Assembly (NCBI RefSeq): GCF_008806325.1 | Contig: NZ_WACR01000009.1 | Span: forward strand, 62,001-126,000 | DNA: 64,000 bases | Source: Salibacter halophilus | GTDB taxonomy: Bacteria; Bacteroidota; Bacteroidia; Flavobacteriales_G; Salibacteraceae | Reading direction: 5' to 3' | Part shown: in pieces, positions 31,973 to 36,897 of the stretch | Layout of the letters: each line of letters starts with the position of its first letter | Numbering within the stretch: the stretch's first letter is position 1 | The notes under the pieces: model-generated | Database searches by the model: none | Told to the model about the DNA's origin: nothing | What the model saw: only the letters and a program-made list of their open reading frames with translations | Made by a program: the position numbers and the translations under genes

Positions 31973-34900
31973 ATGAAAAATATCTTCTTTTTCCTGTTTG
32001 CTCTGCTCATGAGTGGTGCTGCTATTGGTCAATCGACACGGCCCGAGCTCCCCGTAAGTAATCCCAAAGCCGGTGTTTATGCGCTACAAAACGCTACCGT
32101 TTACACACCTTCAGGATATGTTCAAACCGCTACACTTTTAATTGAAAAGAATAAAATTATTTCGGTCGGAGCCGGAATTAGCATACCCGAAAACGCAATC
32201 AAAATCAATTGTGAAGGGCTTTACATTTATCCTTCATTCGTGGAGTTGAACAGTAATTTTGGCCTGCCTAAGCCGGAAAAGAAAAAAGTAAAAAGACCAC
32301 AATACAACCGAACTGAAAAAGGGACTTTTGGTTGGAATGAAGCGATCAAAACAACTCAAATTGCAGTTGAAGATTTTAAAATTGATAAGAAACAAGCTAA
32401 AAAGTTGCAAAAACTGGGAGTCGGATCGGCACTCACACACTACCACGATGGCATTGCGAGAGGAACGGGAGCTGCGGTTGCGGTTCTGACCGATAACGAA
32501 AACAAAGCCGTTTTTAGTCCACAGCCATCAGCTCACTTTTCGTTTCAAAAAGGTACTTCATCTCAGGAATATCCAAACTCCTTGATGGGTGCGATGGCAT
32601 TACTCCGCCAAACAGCCTATGATGCAGAGTGGAGGATGAAACAGGATTCGATCTACGAGGCAAATCTCAGTCTCGATATGTGGAACAAACAGTTTGATAG
32701 CCCTATGAATTCGCTTTTTTTTCATGTTCAGCAATATCGGGATGCACTCAGAGCACTAGATCTTGCACGAGAATGGAATAAAGAATTCATCATTGCGGGA
32801 ACGGGCGATGAGTACAAGCGCATTTTAGAGTTTAAAGAGCGCAATGCTTCCCGGTTTGTGATTCCGCTCAAGCTGCCCAAAGCTCCTGATGTGAGCGATC
32901 CTTACGATGCAATGTACGCTTCACTTGAGGAAATGAAACACTGGGAAATGGCTCCGTCCAATGCTGCTTCACTCAGGCAGGCCGGATTTGAAGTGGCACT
33001 TTCCACTCACGAAATTGAAAAATGGTCAGATCTCACTTTTATGGCTCGTCAGCTTCAAAAAAACGGTTTTTCAGAAAGTGACCTGATTGAAAGTCTCACG
33101 ATGACTCCTGCAAAGTTCATCAATGCTGAGGAGGAAGTCGGGGCGATTGAAAAGAACAAGTTTGCCAATTTCATTATCACGAGCGACAAAATATTTTCCA
33201 AAAAGAGCGAACTGCTCGAAAACTGGGTCATGGGTGAACGCCACGAACTCAAACCGATTGGCGAAATCGACATACGGGGAGATTACGATATCAACATCGA
33301 AAATGAAATTATCAAAATTGAAGTTGGCGGGAAAAAGGAAAAAGTAGAAGCCAAAATTAAAGACGATAAAATTAAATTCAACCGCGAAAAACGACTCGTA
33401 ACCCTTGTATTGGAAAAGGATGTTGCCGGGATGAAAGCTCCTATACGTCTTTCAGGTAAGATCAATTTTGGGAGTAAGATCTGGGATGGTCGCGGAAAAG
33501 ATGCTGATGGTAATTGGTTTACCTGGAGCGCGATACGGCAGAAAGAATTTGATGAAGATGAAGCAGACAAGAAGGAAGAATACCTGATTAAGGCAGATGG
33601 ACAAACATGGTATCCAAACATGGCTTTTGGTTTTGATTCACTTCCAAAGTCTGGTACGTTCTTCATTCGGGGAGCTACTATTTGGTCGAATGACACACTA
33701 GGAGTTTTTGAAGGTGATGTACTCGTGAAAGATGGGAAAATCGAGCAAGTTGGTAAATTCCTGCTGCACGATCCAAGCATTCCGCTCATCGGTGGAAACG
33801 GAAAACATCTCACACCCGGAATTGTCGATGAACACTCGCACATCGCCATTGAGAAAGGAGTCAATGAAGGCACACAGGCTAGCTCGGCTGAGGTCCGCAT
33901 AGGAGATGTGGTCAAAGCAAATGACATTAATATTTACCGCCAGCTCGCGGGAGGTGTAACAACTTCTCAATTGCTTCACGGCTCGGCCAATCCTATTGGA
34001 GGGCAATCAGCACTCATAAAACTCAAATGGGGTGAATCGACCGATGAAATGTTGATCGATGATGCGCCCGGCTTTATCAAATTTGCGCTCGGTGAAAATG
34101 TGAAACAGTCTAATTGGGGGCCAAACTTTACAAAGCGTTTCCCACAAACCAGGATGGGTGTTGAGCAGGTTTTTTACGATTATTTCAAGCGAGCAAAAGA
34201 CTATGCAAATGAATGGGCAAAGTATGACAGTCAGAACCAAAAGTTTTCGTTGCGAAAAGTGCCATTGCTGCGCCATCTTGCAGGTGAAGGCCCCGCAGCT
34301 CCACGGGTTGATCTGGAGCTTGAAGCACTGAGCCAAATTCTGGATACAAATCGTTTCATCTCCTGTCACTCTTACGTTCAGAGTGAGATCAACATGCTCA
34401 TGCACGTTGCCGACAGTATGGATTTTAGAGTCAACACATTTACGCACATTCTCGAAGGCTACAAAATTGCCGACAAACTGGCTGAGCACGGGGCAGCCGG
34501 CTCAACATTCAGTGACTGGTGGGCTTACAAGTTTGAGGTGAACGATGCAATTCCCTACAATGCAGTACTTATGCACGAACAGGGCGTTCTGACCGGAATC
34601 AACTCCGATGATGCTGAAATGGGTCGCAGACTCAACCAGGAAGCAGCCAAAACAGTCAAGTACGGAGGAGTTTCTGAAGAGGAAGCACTCAAAATGGTGA
34701 CACTCAATCCGGCAAAAATGCTCCACCTCGATCATCGCATTGGGAGTGTGACTGAAGGGAAAGATGCTGATTTGGTGTTGTGGGATAGCCATCCATTGAG
34801 CATTTATTCAAAACCGCTTTACACCTGGATTGAAGGTGTTCCGTATTACACTCACTATCAGAACCAGCTTGCCGTTGAAGACAACAAACAGGAAAGGTCC

Positions 34901-35014
34901 AGGCTGGTGAAAAAACTATTGAATGCAGCCGATAAAGGCTACCCAACCAAAACACCTGATAAGAAAACGAATAAACTCTATCATTGTGATACGTTGGTTG
35001 ATGAGGTTGATTAA
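31973..35014 (+). CDS. Secreted double-domain amidohydrolase
   Basis: 1013 residues with a signal peptide (MKNIFFFLFALLMSGAAIG, then QSTRP). Two amidohydrolase-type halves: the first (about 30-430) keeps the beta-sandwich start YALQNATVYTPSGYVQTATLLIE and the end ALSTHEIEKWSDLTFMARQL ... AKFINAEEEVGAIEKNKFANFIIT but lacks an obvious H.H metal motif; the second (about 570-1000) has GIVDEHSHIAIEKG, RFISCHSYVQSEI, NTFTHILEGYKIAD and LTGINSDDAEMGRRL, a complete imidazolonepropionase-like metal site. It is therefore a periplasmic or exported hydrolase with one probably inactive half. Similar genes are usually next to a second amidohydrolase, as here, but the pair is now split by a transposase. Confidence 0.85.
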   Translation: MKNIFFFLFALLMSGAAIGQSTRPELPVSNPKAGVYALQNATVYTPSGYVQTATLLIEKNKIISVGAGISIPENAIKINCEGLYIYPSFVELNSNFGLPKPEKKKVKRPQYNRTEKGTFGWNEAIKTTQIAVEDFKIDKKQAKKLQKLGVGSALTHYHDGIARGTGAAVAVLTDNENKAVFSPQPSAHFSFQKGTSSQEYPNSLMGAMALLRQTAYDAEWRMKQDSIYEANLSLDMWNKQFDSPMNSLFFHVQQYRDALRALDLAREWNKEFIIAGTGDEYKRILEFKERNASRFVIPLKLPKAPDVSDPYDAMYASLEEMKHWEMAPSNAASLRQAGFEVALSTHEIEKWSDLTFMARQLQKNGFSESDLIESLTMTPAKFINAEEEVGAIEKNKFANFIITSDKIFSKKSELLENWVMGERHELKPIGEIDIRGDYDINIENEIIKIEVGGKKEKVEAKIKDDKIKFNREKRLVTLVLEKDVAGMKAPIRLSGKINFGSKIWDGRGKDADGNWFTWSAIRQKEFDEDEADKKEEYLIKADGQTWYPNMAFGFDSLPKSGTFFIRGATIWSNDTLGVFEGDVLVKDGKIEQVGKFLLHDPSIPLIGGNGKHLTPGIVDEHSHIAIEKGVNEGTQASSAEVRIGDVVKANDINIYRQLAGGVTTSQLLHGSANPIGGQSALIKLKWGESTDEMLIDDAPGFIKFALGENVKQSNWGPNFTKRFPQTRMGVEQVFYDYFKRAKDYANEWAKYDSQNQKFSLRKVPLLRHLAGEGPAAPRVDLELEALSQILDTNRFISCHSYVQSEINMLMHVADSMDFRVNTFTHILEGYKIADKLAEHGAAGSTFSDWWAYKFEVNDAIPYNAVLMHEQGVLTGINSDDAEMGRRLNQEAAKTVKYGGVSEEEALKMVTLNPAKMLHLDHRIGSVTEGKDADLVLWDSHPLSIYSKPLYTWIEGVPYYTHYQNQLAVEDNKQERSRLVKKLLNAADKGYPTKTPDKKTNKLYHCDTLVDEVD

Positions 35015-35019
35015 TAACG

Positions 35020-35061
35020 GCCCCTCATAGCCCGCGGTTTAAACCGCGGGCTATGAGGGGC
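35020..35061. repeat. 42-bp perfect palindrome (REP-like, left of the RAYT)
   Basis: A perfect 21+21 bp palindrome centred on GGTTT/AAACC (core CCGCGGTTTAAACCGCGG), six bp after the first amidohydrolase stop and 39 bp before the transposase start. It shares the GGTTT-AA core with the palindromes on the other side of the transposase and could also act as a terminator. Confidence 0.8.
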
Positions 35062-35099
35062 TGTTAAAATGGTTTTTGGATTTATTTAATTTGTATGAA

Positions 35100-35528
35100 A
35101 TGCCACAATCATTCAATAAAATATGGATACACGTTATTTGGGCGACAAAATACAGAGAGCCTATTATTGAATTGGACATTGAACAAAAGGTGCATCAATT
35201 CATGTCAGATCAATTACGTGAGCATGGATGTCCGGTTAGAATAATTAACGGAATGCCAGATCATGTTCATTGTTTGTTTTTACAGAACCCAAAAAAATCT
35301 ATAAGTGAAATTATTAAGCAAGTCAAAGGAAGTACATCTTTTTACGTCAATCAAAACGAATTGATAACAGGTAAATTTTCATGGCAAAAAGGCTATGGAG
35401 CATTTTCTGTTTCAGAATCTGATGTAGAAAGGGTTTTCCAGTACATTAAAAACCAAAAACGTCATCATCAAAGAAAATCATTTCAAGAAGAATTTGAAGG
35501 ATTTTCTAAACTTCATGGAATAACATAA
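35100..35528 (+). mobile_element. REP-associated tyrosine transposase (RAYT / IS200-like Y1)
   Basis: 142 residues from the ATG at 35100 (an upstream ATG at 35076 adds eight residues). The Y1 transposase core is visible: WIHVIWATKYREPII at the start, the HUH metal motif in GMPDHVHCLFL, GYGAFSVS, and the catalytic Tyr in VERVFQYIKNQKRHH. Proteins of this type cut single-stranded DNA at palindromes; RAYTs are typically single-copy and flanked by REP sequences, as seen here (35020-35061 and 35552-35607). It separates two amidohydrolase genes that are usually adjacent. No motif is damaged, so it is potentially active. Confidence 0.85.
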
Positions 35529-35532
35529 CCAT

Positions 35533-36897
35533 ATGATAGTAACAACCATAACCATCGGTTTTAACCGATGGACAGAGCCAGCATCAACCATCGGTTTAAA
35601 ACGATGGCTGATATCCATCCTTCTGATCTTTTTTGGATTTGAGGTTTACAGTCAGATCCCAACGCCAGCCGGAAAAGTCAAAAAGTCGATGCTCATTCTG
35701 GGTGGAACCGCTCATGTTGGTGACGGCCGAATCGTAAAGAATGCAGCGATCGGGGTGAAAAACGGGCACTTCACTTTTGTGGAAAACCAGATGTTTCAGC
35801 GAGTTGACACAAAAGAATTCGATACGATCATCAGACTAACTGATGAGCACATTTATCCAGGGTTTATCGCGCCCAATACAACACTTGGACTGAGAGAAGT
35901 GGATGCGGTTAGAGCTACGAGAGACTTTGACGATGTTGGACTTTTCAATCCAAACGTGCGCTCACTGGTCGCTTACAACACTGATTCGCGAATCATTCCC
36001 ACGATCAGATCCAACGGTGTCTTGTTGGCTCAGGCAACTCCCCGTGGCGGACTCATAAGCGGTTCTTCCTCCATCATGCAGCTCGATGGCTGGAACTGGG
36101 AAGATGCGGTTTTGAAGAGTGATGACGGGATTCATCTCAACTGGCCTGAGCGGTTCGTTCAGCACGGCTGGTGGGCCAATCCGGGTGGATCTGACCGAAA
36201 TAAAAAGGAAGAAAAGCAGATTGTGAAAATTGAAAAGTTCTTCACTGAGGCGAGCGCTTATTACGAGGGCGGATCTGAAAAAGAAAACCTCCGTTTTGAG
36301 GCGATGAAAGGTGTTTTTGACGGATCCAAAAGGCTGTATATTCACTGCAATCAGGCACGGGCAATTGTGCTTGCCATGGAGTTGAAGCGCGACTTTGATA
36401 TTCCAAACGTTGTGCTCGTTGGCGGTTACGATGCGTATCTTGTACCTGAAGCGCTTACCGATAATGATGTGCCGGTCATTTACCAACGCCCGCACTCGTT
36501 GCCTCACCGCGATGATGATCCCATTCATTTACCGTATCAAATCCCAAAAAAACTGCAGGATGCCGGCATTTTGTATTGTTTGGATATGAGCGGGAGTATG
36601 GAAGCTATGAATCAGCGCAATTTGCCGTTTGTAGCGGGAACAGCGCATGCTTACGGGTTGGATAAAGAACAGGCCATTGCAGCTATTTCGGGGAATGCTG
36701 CCAAAATTTTGGGAATTGACGAAACGGTGGGAACGCTTGATGCGGGCAAGCAGGCCACGTTCTTCATTTCCAAAGGCGATGCCCTCGATATGCGAACAAA
36801 TAAGGTGCGTCACGCCTTTATCCAGGGGGCAGAGATCGATTTGGACAATCCGCAAAAAGCGCTCTACCGCAAGTTTAAAAGCAAATACGAAAACTGA
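35533..36897 (+). CDS. Amidohydrolase family protein with a REP-derived N-terminus
   Basis: 454 residues as read from the ATG at 35533. The enzyme body begins near residue 42 (IPTPAGKVKKSMLILGGTAHVGDG) and shows an amidohydrolase beta-sandwich and barrel with YPGFIAPNTTLGLREV, ATPRGGLISGSSSIMQLDG, VLVGGYDAYLVPEAL and a C-terminal VAGTAHAYGLDKEQAIAAISGNAAKILG..ETVGTLDAGKQATFFI. The canonical H.H pair is missing (IAPNT in its place), so catalysis may be altered. A signal-peptide core (WLISILLIFFGFEVYSQ) is kept, but the codons before it come from two REP palindromes, and no other ATG or GTG start is available in frame. It follows the RAYT directly and probably once followed the first amidohydrolase gene. 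Confidence 0.8.
   Translation: MIVTTITIGFNRWTEPASTIGLKRWLISILLIFFGFEVYSQIPTPAGKVKKSMLILGGTAHVGDGRIVKNAAIGVKNGHFTFVENQMFQRVDTKEFDTIIRLTDEHIYPGFIAPNTTLGLREVDAVRATRDFDDVGLFNPNVRSLVAYNTDSRIIPTIRSNGVLLAQATPRGGLISGSSSIMQLDGWNWEDAVLKSDDGIHLNWPERFVQHGWWANPGGSDRNKKEEKQIVKIEKFFTEASAYYEGGSEKENLRFEAMKGVFDGSKRLYIHCNQARAIVLAMELKRDFDIPNVVLVGGYDAYLVPEALTDNDVPVIYQRPHSLPHRDDDPIHLPYQIPKKLQDAGILYCLDMSGSMEAMNQRNLPFVAGTAHAYGLDKEQAIAAISGNAAKILGIDETVGTLDAGKQATFFISKGDALDMRTNKVRHAFIQGAEIDLDNPQKALYRKFKSKYEN
35552..35571. repeat. REP-like palindrome, copy 2
   Basis: CCATCGGTT-TT-AACCGATGG, perfect arms of nine bp. It lies inside the reading frame of the second amidohydrolase and encodes TIGFNRW. Confidence 0.75.
35588..35607. 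repeat. REP-like palindrome, copy 3
   Basis: CCATCG-GTTTAAAA-CGATGG, the same outer arms as copy 2, 36 bp further on. It encodes TIGLKRW in the amidohydrolase frame. Confidence 0.75.

Follow-up and report, generated by a model that had tools for sequence, protein, structure and literature searches.

Palindromic mobile DNA lying in frame within protein genes is already established, and several described systems can be compared with the locus presented here, which is a clear single case of a known kind of event. Intragenic GTAG/CGTC REPs occur in frame in protein genes, sometimes at the N-terminus; for the latter, Di Nocera et al. (2013; PMC3733652) caution that the start may have been wrongly annotated. 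In the closest precedent, YPO1552, a signal peptide predicted to span 41 aa is formed in part by an ERIC-type repeat (PMC2759123). Rickettsia palindromic elements (RPEs) are translated in frame within host proteins; they are ~150 bp long, multicopy, found in many different genes and have no transposase gene attached (PMC10969869). RAYT/REPtron and TIRYT/TIRtron units carry a Y1 transposase gene between palindromic repeats (PMC2817692, PMC3733652). Finally, TnpA_Y1 transposases of subclass 1.2 are known from Bacteroidetes and Cyanobacteria, where they are low-copy and generally without IS200 end structures (PMC6006769).

We analysed a 64,000-nt stretch of DNA from Salibacter halophilus (GCF_008806325.1, contig NZ_WACR01000009.1; 'the window') in which a Y1 transposase gene lies between two amidohydrolase genes, AH1 and AH2 (Table 1). 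The reading frame of AH2 opens at 35524, and its ATG lies 4 nt past the transposase stop (35526-35528). Codons 1–25 run across two 20-nt palindromes which, being 36 nt apart, are read in the same frame, and this leader is in frame with the conserved part of AH2. The position of the start just behind the transposase, the location of the palindromes and their two similar peptides are all as given in a preliminary description of the locus. An in-frame scan likewise agrees with its statement that no ATG or GTG intervenes before the native core: from 35533 to ATG 35689 there is no further ATG, GTG or TTG, and the leader holds the sole canonical in-frame start upstream of 35689. The resulting n-region has 25 residues, which is long for a standard Sec signal, and a net charge of +2, with a KR pair in a favourable position directly ahead of the hydrophobic core. 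The lysine of this pair depends on a C-to-A departure from perfect symmetry in the second palindrome, by which LNRW is turned into LKRW; suggestive as this is, it amounts to one substitution seen in one genome.

Table 1. Features around the AH1-AH2 junction, numbered from the first nucleotide of the window.
Feature	Coordinates	Strand	Description
AH1	31973..35014	+	Exported amidohydrolase of 1013 aa, encoded upstream of its partner AH2; Pfam Amidohydro_1/Amidohydro_3
Probable native AH2 start, ATG 35001	35001..35027	+	Overlaps AH1 end; 9-codon frame MRLINNGPS, then TAG 35028-35030
Left flanking palindrome	35015..35066		52 nt, 26-nt arms, core CATAGCCCGCGGTTTAAACCGCGGGCTATG; just behind AH1
TnpA_Y1 transposase	35100..35528	+	Subclass 1.2 type, 142 aa, intact, HVH and YIKNQKRHH; single genomic copy
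AH2	35533..36897	+	454-aa amidohydrolase-family protein, ATG start, rewritten N-terminus
Insertion-derived leader MIVTTITIGFNRWTEPASTIGLKRW	35533..35607	+	25 codons; absent from orthologues
Right palindrome 1, CCATCGGTTTTAACCGATGG	35552..35571		20 nt, encodes TIGFNRW
Right palindrome 2, CCATCGGTTTAAAACGATGG	35588..35607		20 nt, encodes TIGLKRW; one arm mismatch
LISILLIFFGFEVYSQ, native hydrophobic core of the signal peptide with cleavage motif	35608..35655	+	VYS before Q

The origin of the leader was addressed by comparing ~90 loci encoding AH2 relatives. Orthologues are found in many Bacteroidota, with identities of up to 66%, and in most of these loci AH1 adjoins AH2, often overlapping it: the end of AH1 is usually within ~50 nt of the AH2 start, and in most loci the AH2 start codon falls between about -40 and +50 nt relative to the AH1 stop. 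Orthologue signal peptides are 16–26 aa long and come without palindromes and without a transposase; those of three relatives read MNYIKQLYITLIFGGLFLGIQAQ (L007), MKMKGISLIWMLIIGTSHMWAQ (L006) and MNKPIQIILIFLVTFFSWDANGQ (L005). The 25-codon leader is found in none of the AH2 orthologues examined, and the present start as a shared ancestral feature is thereby ruled out. The core, on the other hand, matches orthologue signal peptides in position and chemistry, with VYS before Q as in the relatives. Since the orthologues lack the leader residues, we conclude that the leader came with the insertion and that the core is native. The earlier proposal that AH2 lost its native start and n-region to an insertion is thus supported by the same comparison, in which the transposase-free orthologues never share the leader residues.

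The preliminary description was right that the start had been replaced but missed a probable surviving native start, ATG 35001. The frame from this codon overlaps the end of AH1 and terminates inside the left palindrome; its offset of -13 nt from the AH1 stop is the same as in L007 and L088, and all three of the closest relatives with an AH1-AH2 pair (L005, L006 and L007) have, ahead of the AH1 stop, an ATG that is in frame with AH2. When the flanks are joined (after 35018 to 35608) the frame reads MRLINN-LISILLIFFGFEVYSQIPTPAG / MRLINN-LISILLIFFGFEVYSQ, giving a 21-aa signal peptide whose length and 6-aa n-region (charge +1) match those of the relatives. The implied insert is ~589 nt; several joins keep the frame, and for the KRW ahead of the core either a native or a palindromic origin is possible. 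ATG 35001 was thus probably the native AH2 start, now separated from its gene, an assignment that rests on synteny because the start context of this codon scores poorly.

The transposase itself had been described as a RAYT. It matches Pfam Y1_Tnp at 1.7e-30 and scores 84.9 bits against the NCBIfam IS200/IS605 model transpos_IS200, above its cut-off of 55, but only 34.6 bits against the REP_Tyr_transpos model NF047646, for which the cut-off is 80. The class 2 tyrosine motif Y---NP of RAYT (TnpA_REP) proteins is absent; the sequence reads YIKNQKRHH, and palindromes on both sides of the gene are the one RAYT feature that is present. The RAYT assignment is therefore not supported. What the protein does show are the features of TnpA_Y1 subclass 1.2: the Y---Q--HH motif with HuH (here HVH), a length close to ~150 aa, low copy number (one match in its own genome) and a Bacteroidetes host (PMC6006769). 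Unlike the members of this subclass in the published survey, which are generally without terminal hairpins, the gene has palindromes on both sides, as do 16 of 28 relatives; the survey's 'generally' refers to typical IS200 end hairpins, and the palindromes neither exclude nor confirm membership of subclass 1.2 (PMC6006769).

These palindromes belong to a wider pattern. Related transposase genes have a palindrome upstream in 22 and downstream in 20 of the 28 cases, compared with 29 of 280 control windows, and the palindromes of related modules often share a CGGTTTAAACCG core. A family relative, L103, has a 70% identical transposase between CATAGCCAGCGGTTTAAACCGCTGGCTATG palindromes of the same design as the left palindrome of the window. 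Relatives of the subclass 1.2 transposase are thus commonly palindrome-flanked, which is not reported in the survey (PMC6006769). Across L103 and L118-L144, Bacteroidota TnpA_Y1 subclass 1.2 genes commonly lie between GC-rich perfect palindromes, often CATAGCCCACGGTTTAAACCGTGGGCTATG, and a second, shorter palindrome is often found ~20-50 nt from the first.

In the window, the two right-hand palindromes had been recognised previously, and the third, on the left, had not been included; it belongs to the same insertion, whose left side it marks. The left palindrome folds at -50.9 kcal/mol (z = -12.3), and the right pair, as RNA, folds far better than shuffled sequences (z = -5.7), which shows that the right palindromes are not due to chance. 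Both sides are single copy: the right palindromes have no other copy within 2 mismatches in the 3.12-Mb genome, where 3 mismatches separate them from the nearest other sites, and the left palindrome likewise has a core without a second copy in the genome. A search of Rfam with 34900-35800 returned only matches far below gathering scores, mostly to the hairpin, which we judge to be chance. The earlier view of the palindromes as REPs is not upheld by these searches, and without further genomic copies 'REP' is a misnomer here. An explanation in which dispersed REPs landed by chance in the coding start, with a RAYT merely nearby, would account for the palindromic shape and for the closeness to a Y1 transposase. 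It is contradicted by the genome copy-number search, and among the relatives the transposase gene and similar flanking palindromes form a unit; we consider it extremely improbable and have rejected it. Most likely the palindromes are the ends of the transposase module and not REPs in this genome, as judged from copy number and from the related modules. Each right palindrome also ends in CGATGG, providing an outward ATG (35568-35570, 35604-35606) in a frame unused by AH2, and the start context of these outward ATGs scores better than that of ATG 35533.

Set against the described systems, the locus resembles the GTAG/CGTC REPs in that palindromic DNA tied to a tyrosine transposase lies in frame in a protein gene; unlike them, the palindromes are single copy and sit in a complete transposase module. 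Start misannotation does not remove the problem here, because displacement of the native start is evident from the orthologues. The ERIC-type case involves a MITE-like repeat without a transposase of its own (PMC2759123), whereas here a transposase module contributes its right end as the leader, immediately after the transposase stop. RPEs differ from the module in size, in being multicopy and spread over many genes, and in having no transposase gene attached (PMC10969869). RAYT/REPtron and TIRYT/TIRtron units share the arrangement of a Y1 transposase gene between palindromic repeats, but here there is no dispersed REP family, no Y---NP motif and a score below the RAYT cut-off. In the light of these precedents (PMC3733652, PMC2759123, PMC10969869), in-frame recruitment of such DNA into a signal peptide is not as unusual as was first thought. 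The locus departs from them in having a complete transposase module and a still recognisable probable displaced start, and in that translation may now be handed on from the transposase stop to a new start codon.

Insertion into the n-region of the AH2 signal peptide appears well supported by the comparison with orthologues, and we lean modestly towards a reading in which translation of AH2 now begins at ATG 35533, giving it a palindrome-encoded leader. A ~0.59 kb palindrome-flanked, single-copy TnpA_Y1 (subclass 1.2) module would have entered in the sense direction at codons 5-7 of the AH2 n-region, cutting off the native start ATG 35001, which overlaps AH1, from its gene. Translation, which formerly would have run from AH1 to AH2 directly, would then pass from AH1 to TnpA to AH2, with 25 codons from the module, the two right-end palindromes among them, serving as a long n-region before an unchanged core and VYS site. 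The whole leader would be cleaved off on export, leaving the mature enzyme unchanged. On this account the gene survives because an n-region can be almost any short basic sequence and is cleaved from the mature protein. The likeliest reading, though unproven, is that ATG 35533 is in use and that AH2 is exported by way of the palindrome-encoded leader; if AH2 is so translated, the locus is a clean example of a mobile element entering a coding start without destroying the gene.

The open frame by itself is weak evidence for this, because two of the three frames leaving the right end of the module carry an ATG without a stop before the junction. Among related modules an ATG is present in 16/60 outgoing frames, and an ATG, GTG or TTG in 33/60. 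An in-frame start out of a module end is therefore not very surprising. As regards recurrence, in none of the 28 related modules does the right palindrome clearly fall within a conserved gene downstream; in L125, L130 and L132 the downstream genes begin shortly past the transposase with ordinary starts of their own.

The same frequencies favour the main rival, a recent silencing insertion, in which AH2, cut from its start, is little expressed or silent, the open frame is a coincidence and decay is not yet visible. This account gains from the context upstream of ATG 35533, which is weaker than that of 93% of the 29 gene starts compared within the window (and better than that of 79% of all ATGs), and from the 52-nt hairpin (-50.9 kcal/mol) that now stands between AH1 and the genes downstream. 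Stable hairpins also begin 19 nt into the AH2 frame and, together with the weak start context and the 25-aa n-region, argue against easy expression of AH2. A scan of 34000-35700 for the Bacteroidota promoter consensus gave no match. Against silencing, AH2 is fully intact and unaccelerated, with 0/33 departures from near-invariant columns, a frame open to its natural end and an end branch shorter than that of its sister (0.26 versus 0.48); moreover, the leader happens to be basic just ahead of the hydrophobic core. The intactness of AH2 is compatible with continued function and also with a recent insertion, judged as it is from one genome. A search for strains of the same species with which to date the insertion found none. 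Overall, we give the knock-out an appreciable minority chance. In two genomes of the same genus (L032 and L033) AH2 is found without an upstream AH1, behind a 343-346 aa open frame ending in EYRREVEAVINSI; their retention of AH2 without AH1 suggests that AH2 is worth keeping. In the window, AH1 has 8 departures in 144 near-invariant columns, most of them in the first half of the protein; this is at the high end of 53 sequences but is equalled by two others; nothing was concluded from AH1 as a relaxed-selection control.

It is also conceivable that AH2 starts elsewhere, either at CTG 35608, ATA 35611 or ATC 35617, with a near-native signal peptide, or at ATG 35689, as a cytoplasmic protein with no signal. 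All four codons are in frame, and CTG 35608 would give MISILLIFFGFEVYSQ-like export, but with no basic n-region left. Located at the margin of the conserved domain, ATG 35689 has a context that scores lower than that of any gene start scored across the window, and neither it nor CTG 35608 is apparently used by any orthologue. We regard a start at any of these codons as quite improbable.

A broader interpretation would be that the right ends of single-copy TnpA_Y1 modules act as portable starts. With ATGs in more than one outgoing frame behind the transposase stop, an operon gene hit at its 5' end could stay alive, translation being handed from the transposase to the palindrome-encoded leader. 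Here that leader would be a working n-region, to which the C-to-A change (N to K) would have added positive charge. We offer this as a speculation and think it unlikely.

The AH1-AH2 junction has also been entered by a second kind of small gene. In two Parafilimonas genomes, one Ilyomonas and one Bacteroidetes MAG (L065, L067, L071 and L091), an unrelated gene encoding a 23S rRNA intervening-sequence-type protein (PF05635) lies at the junction, with AH2 starting ~470-520 nt past the AH1 stop; the frame of this small gene looks shifted in L091.
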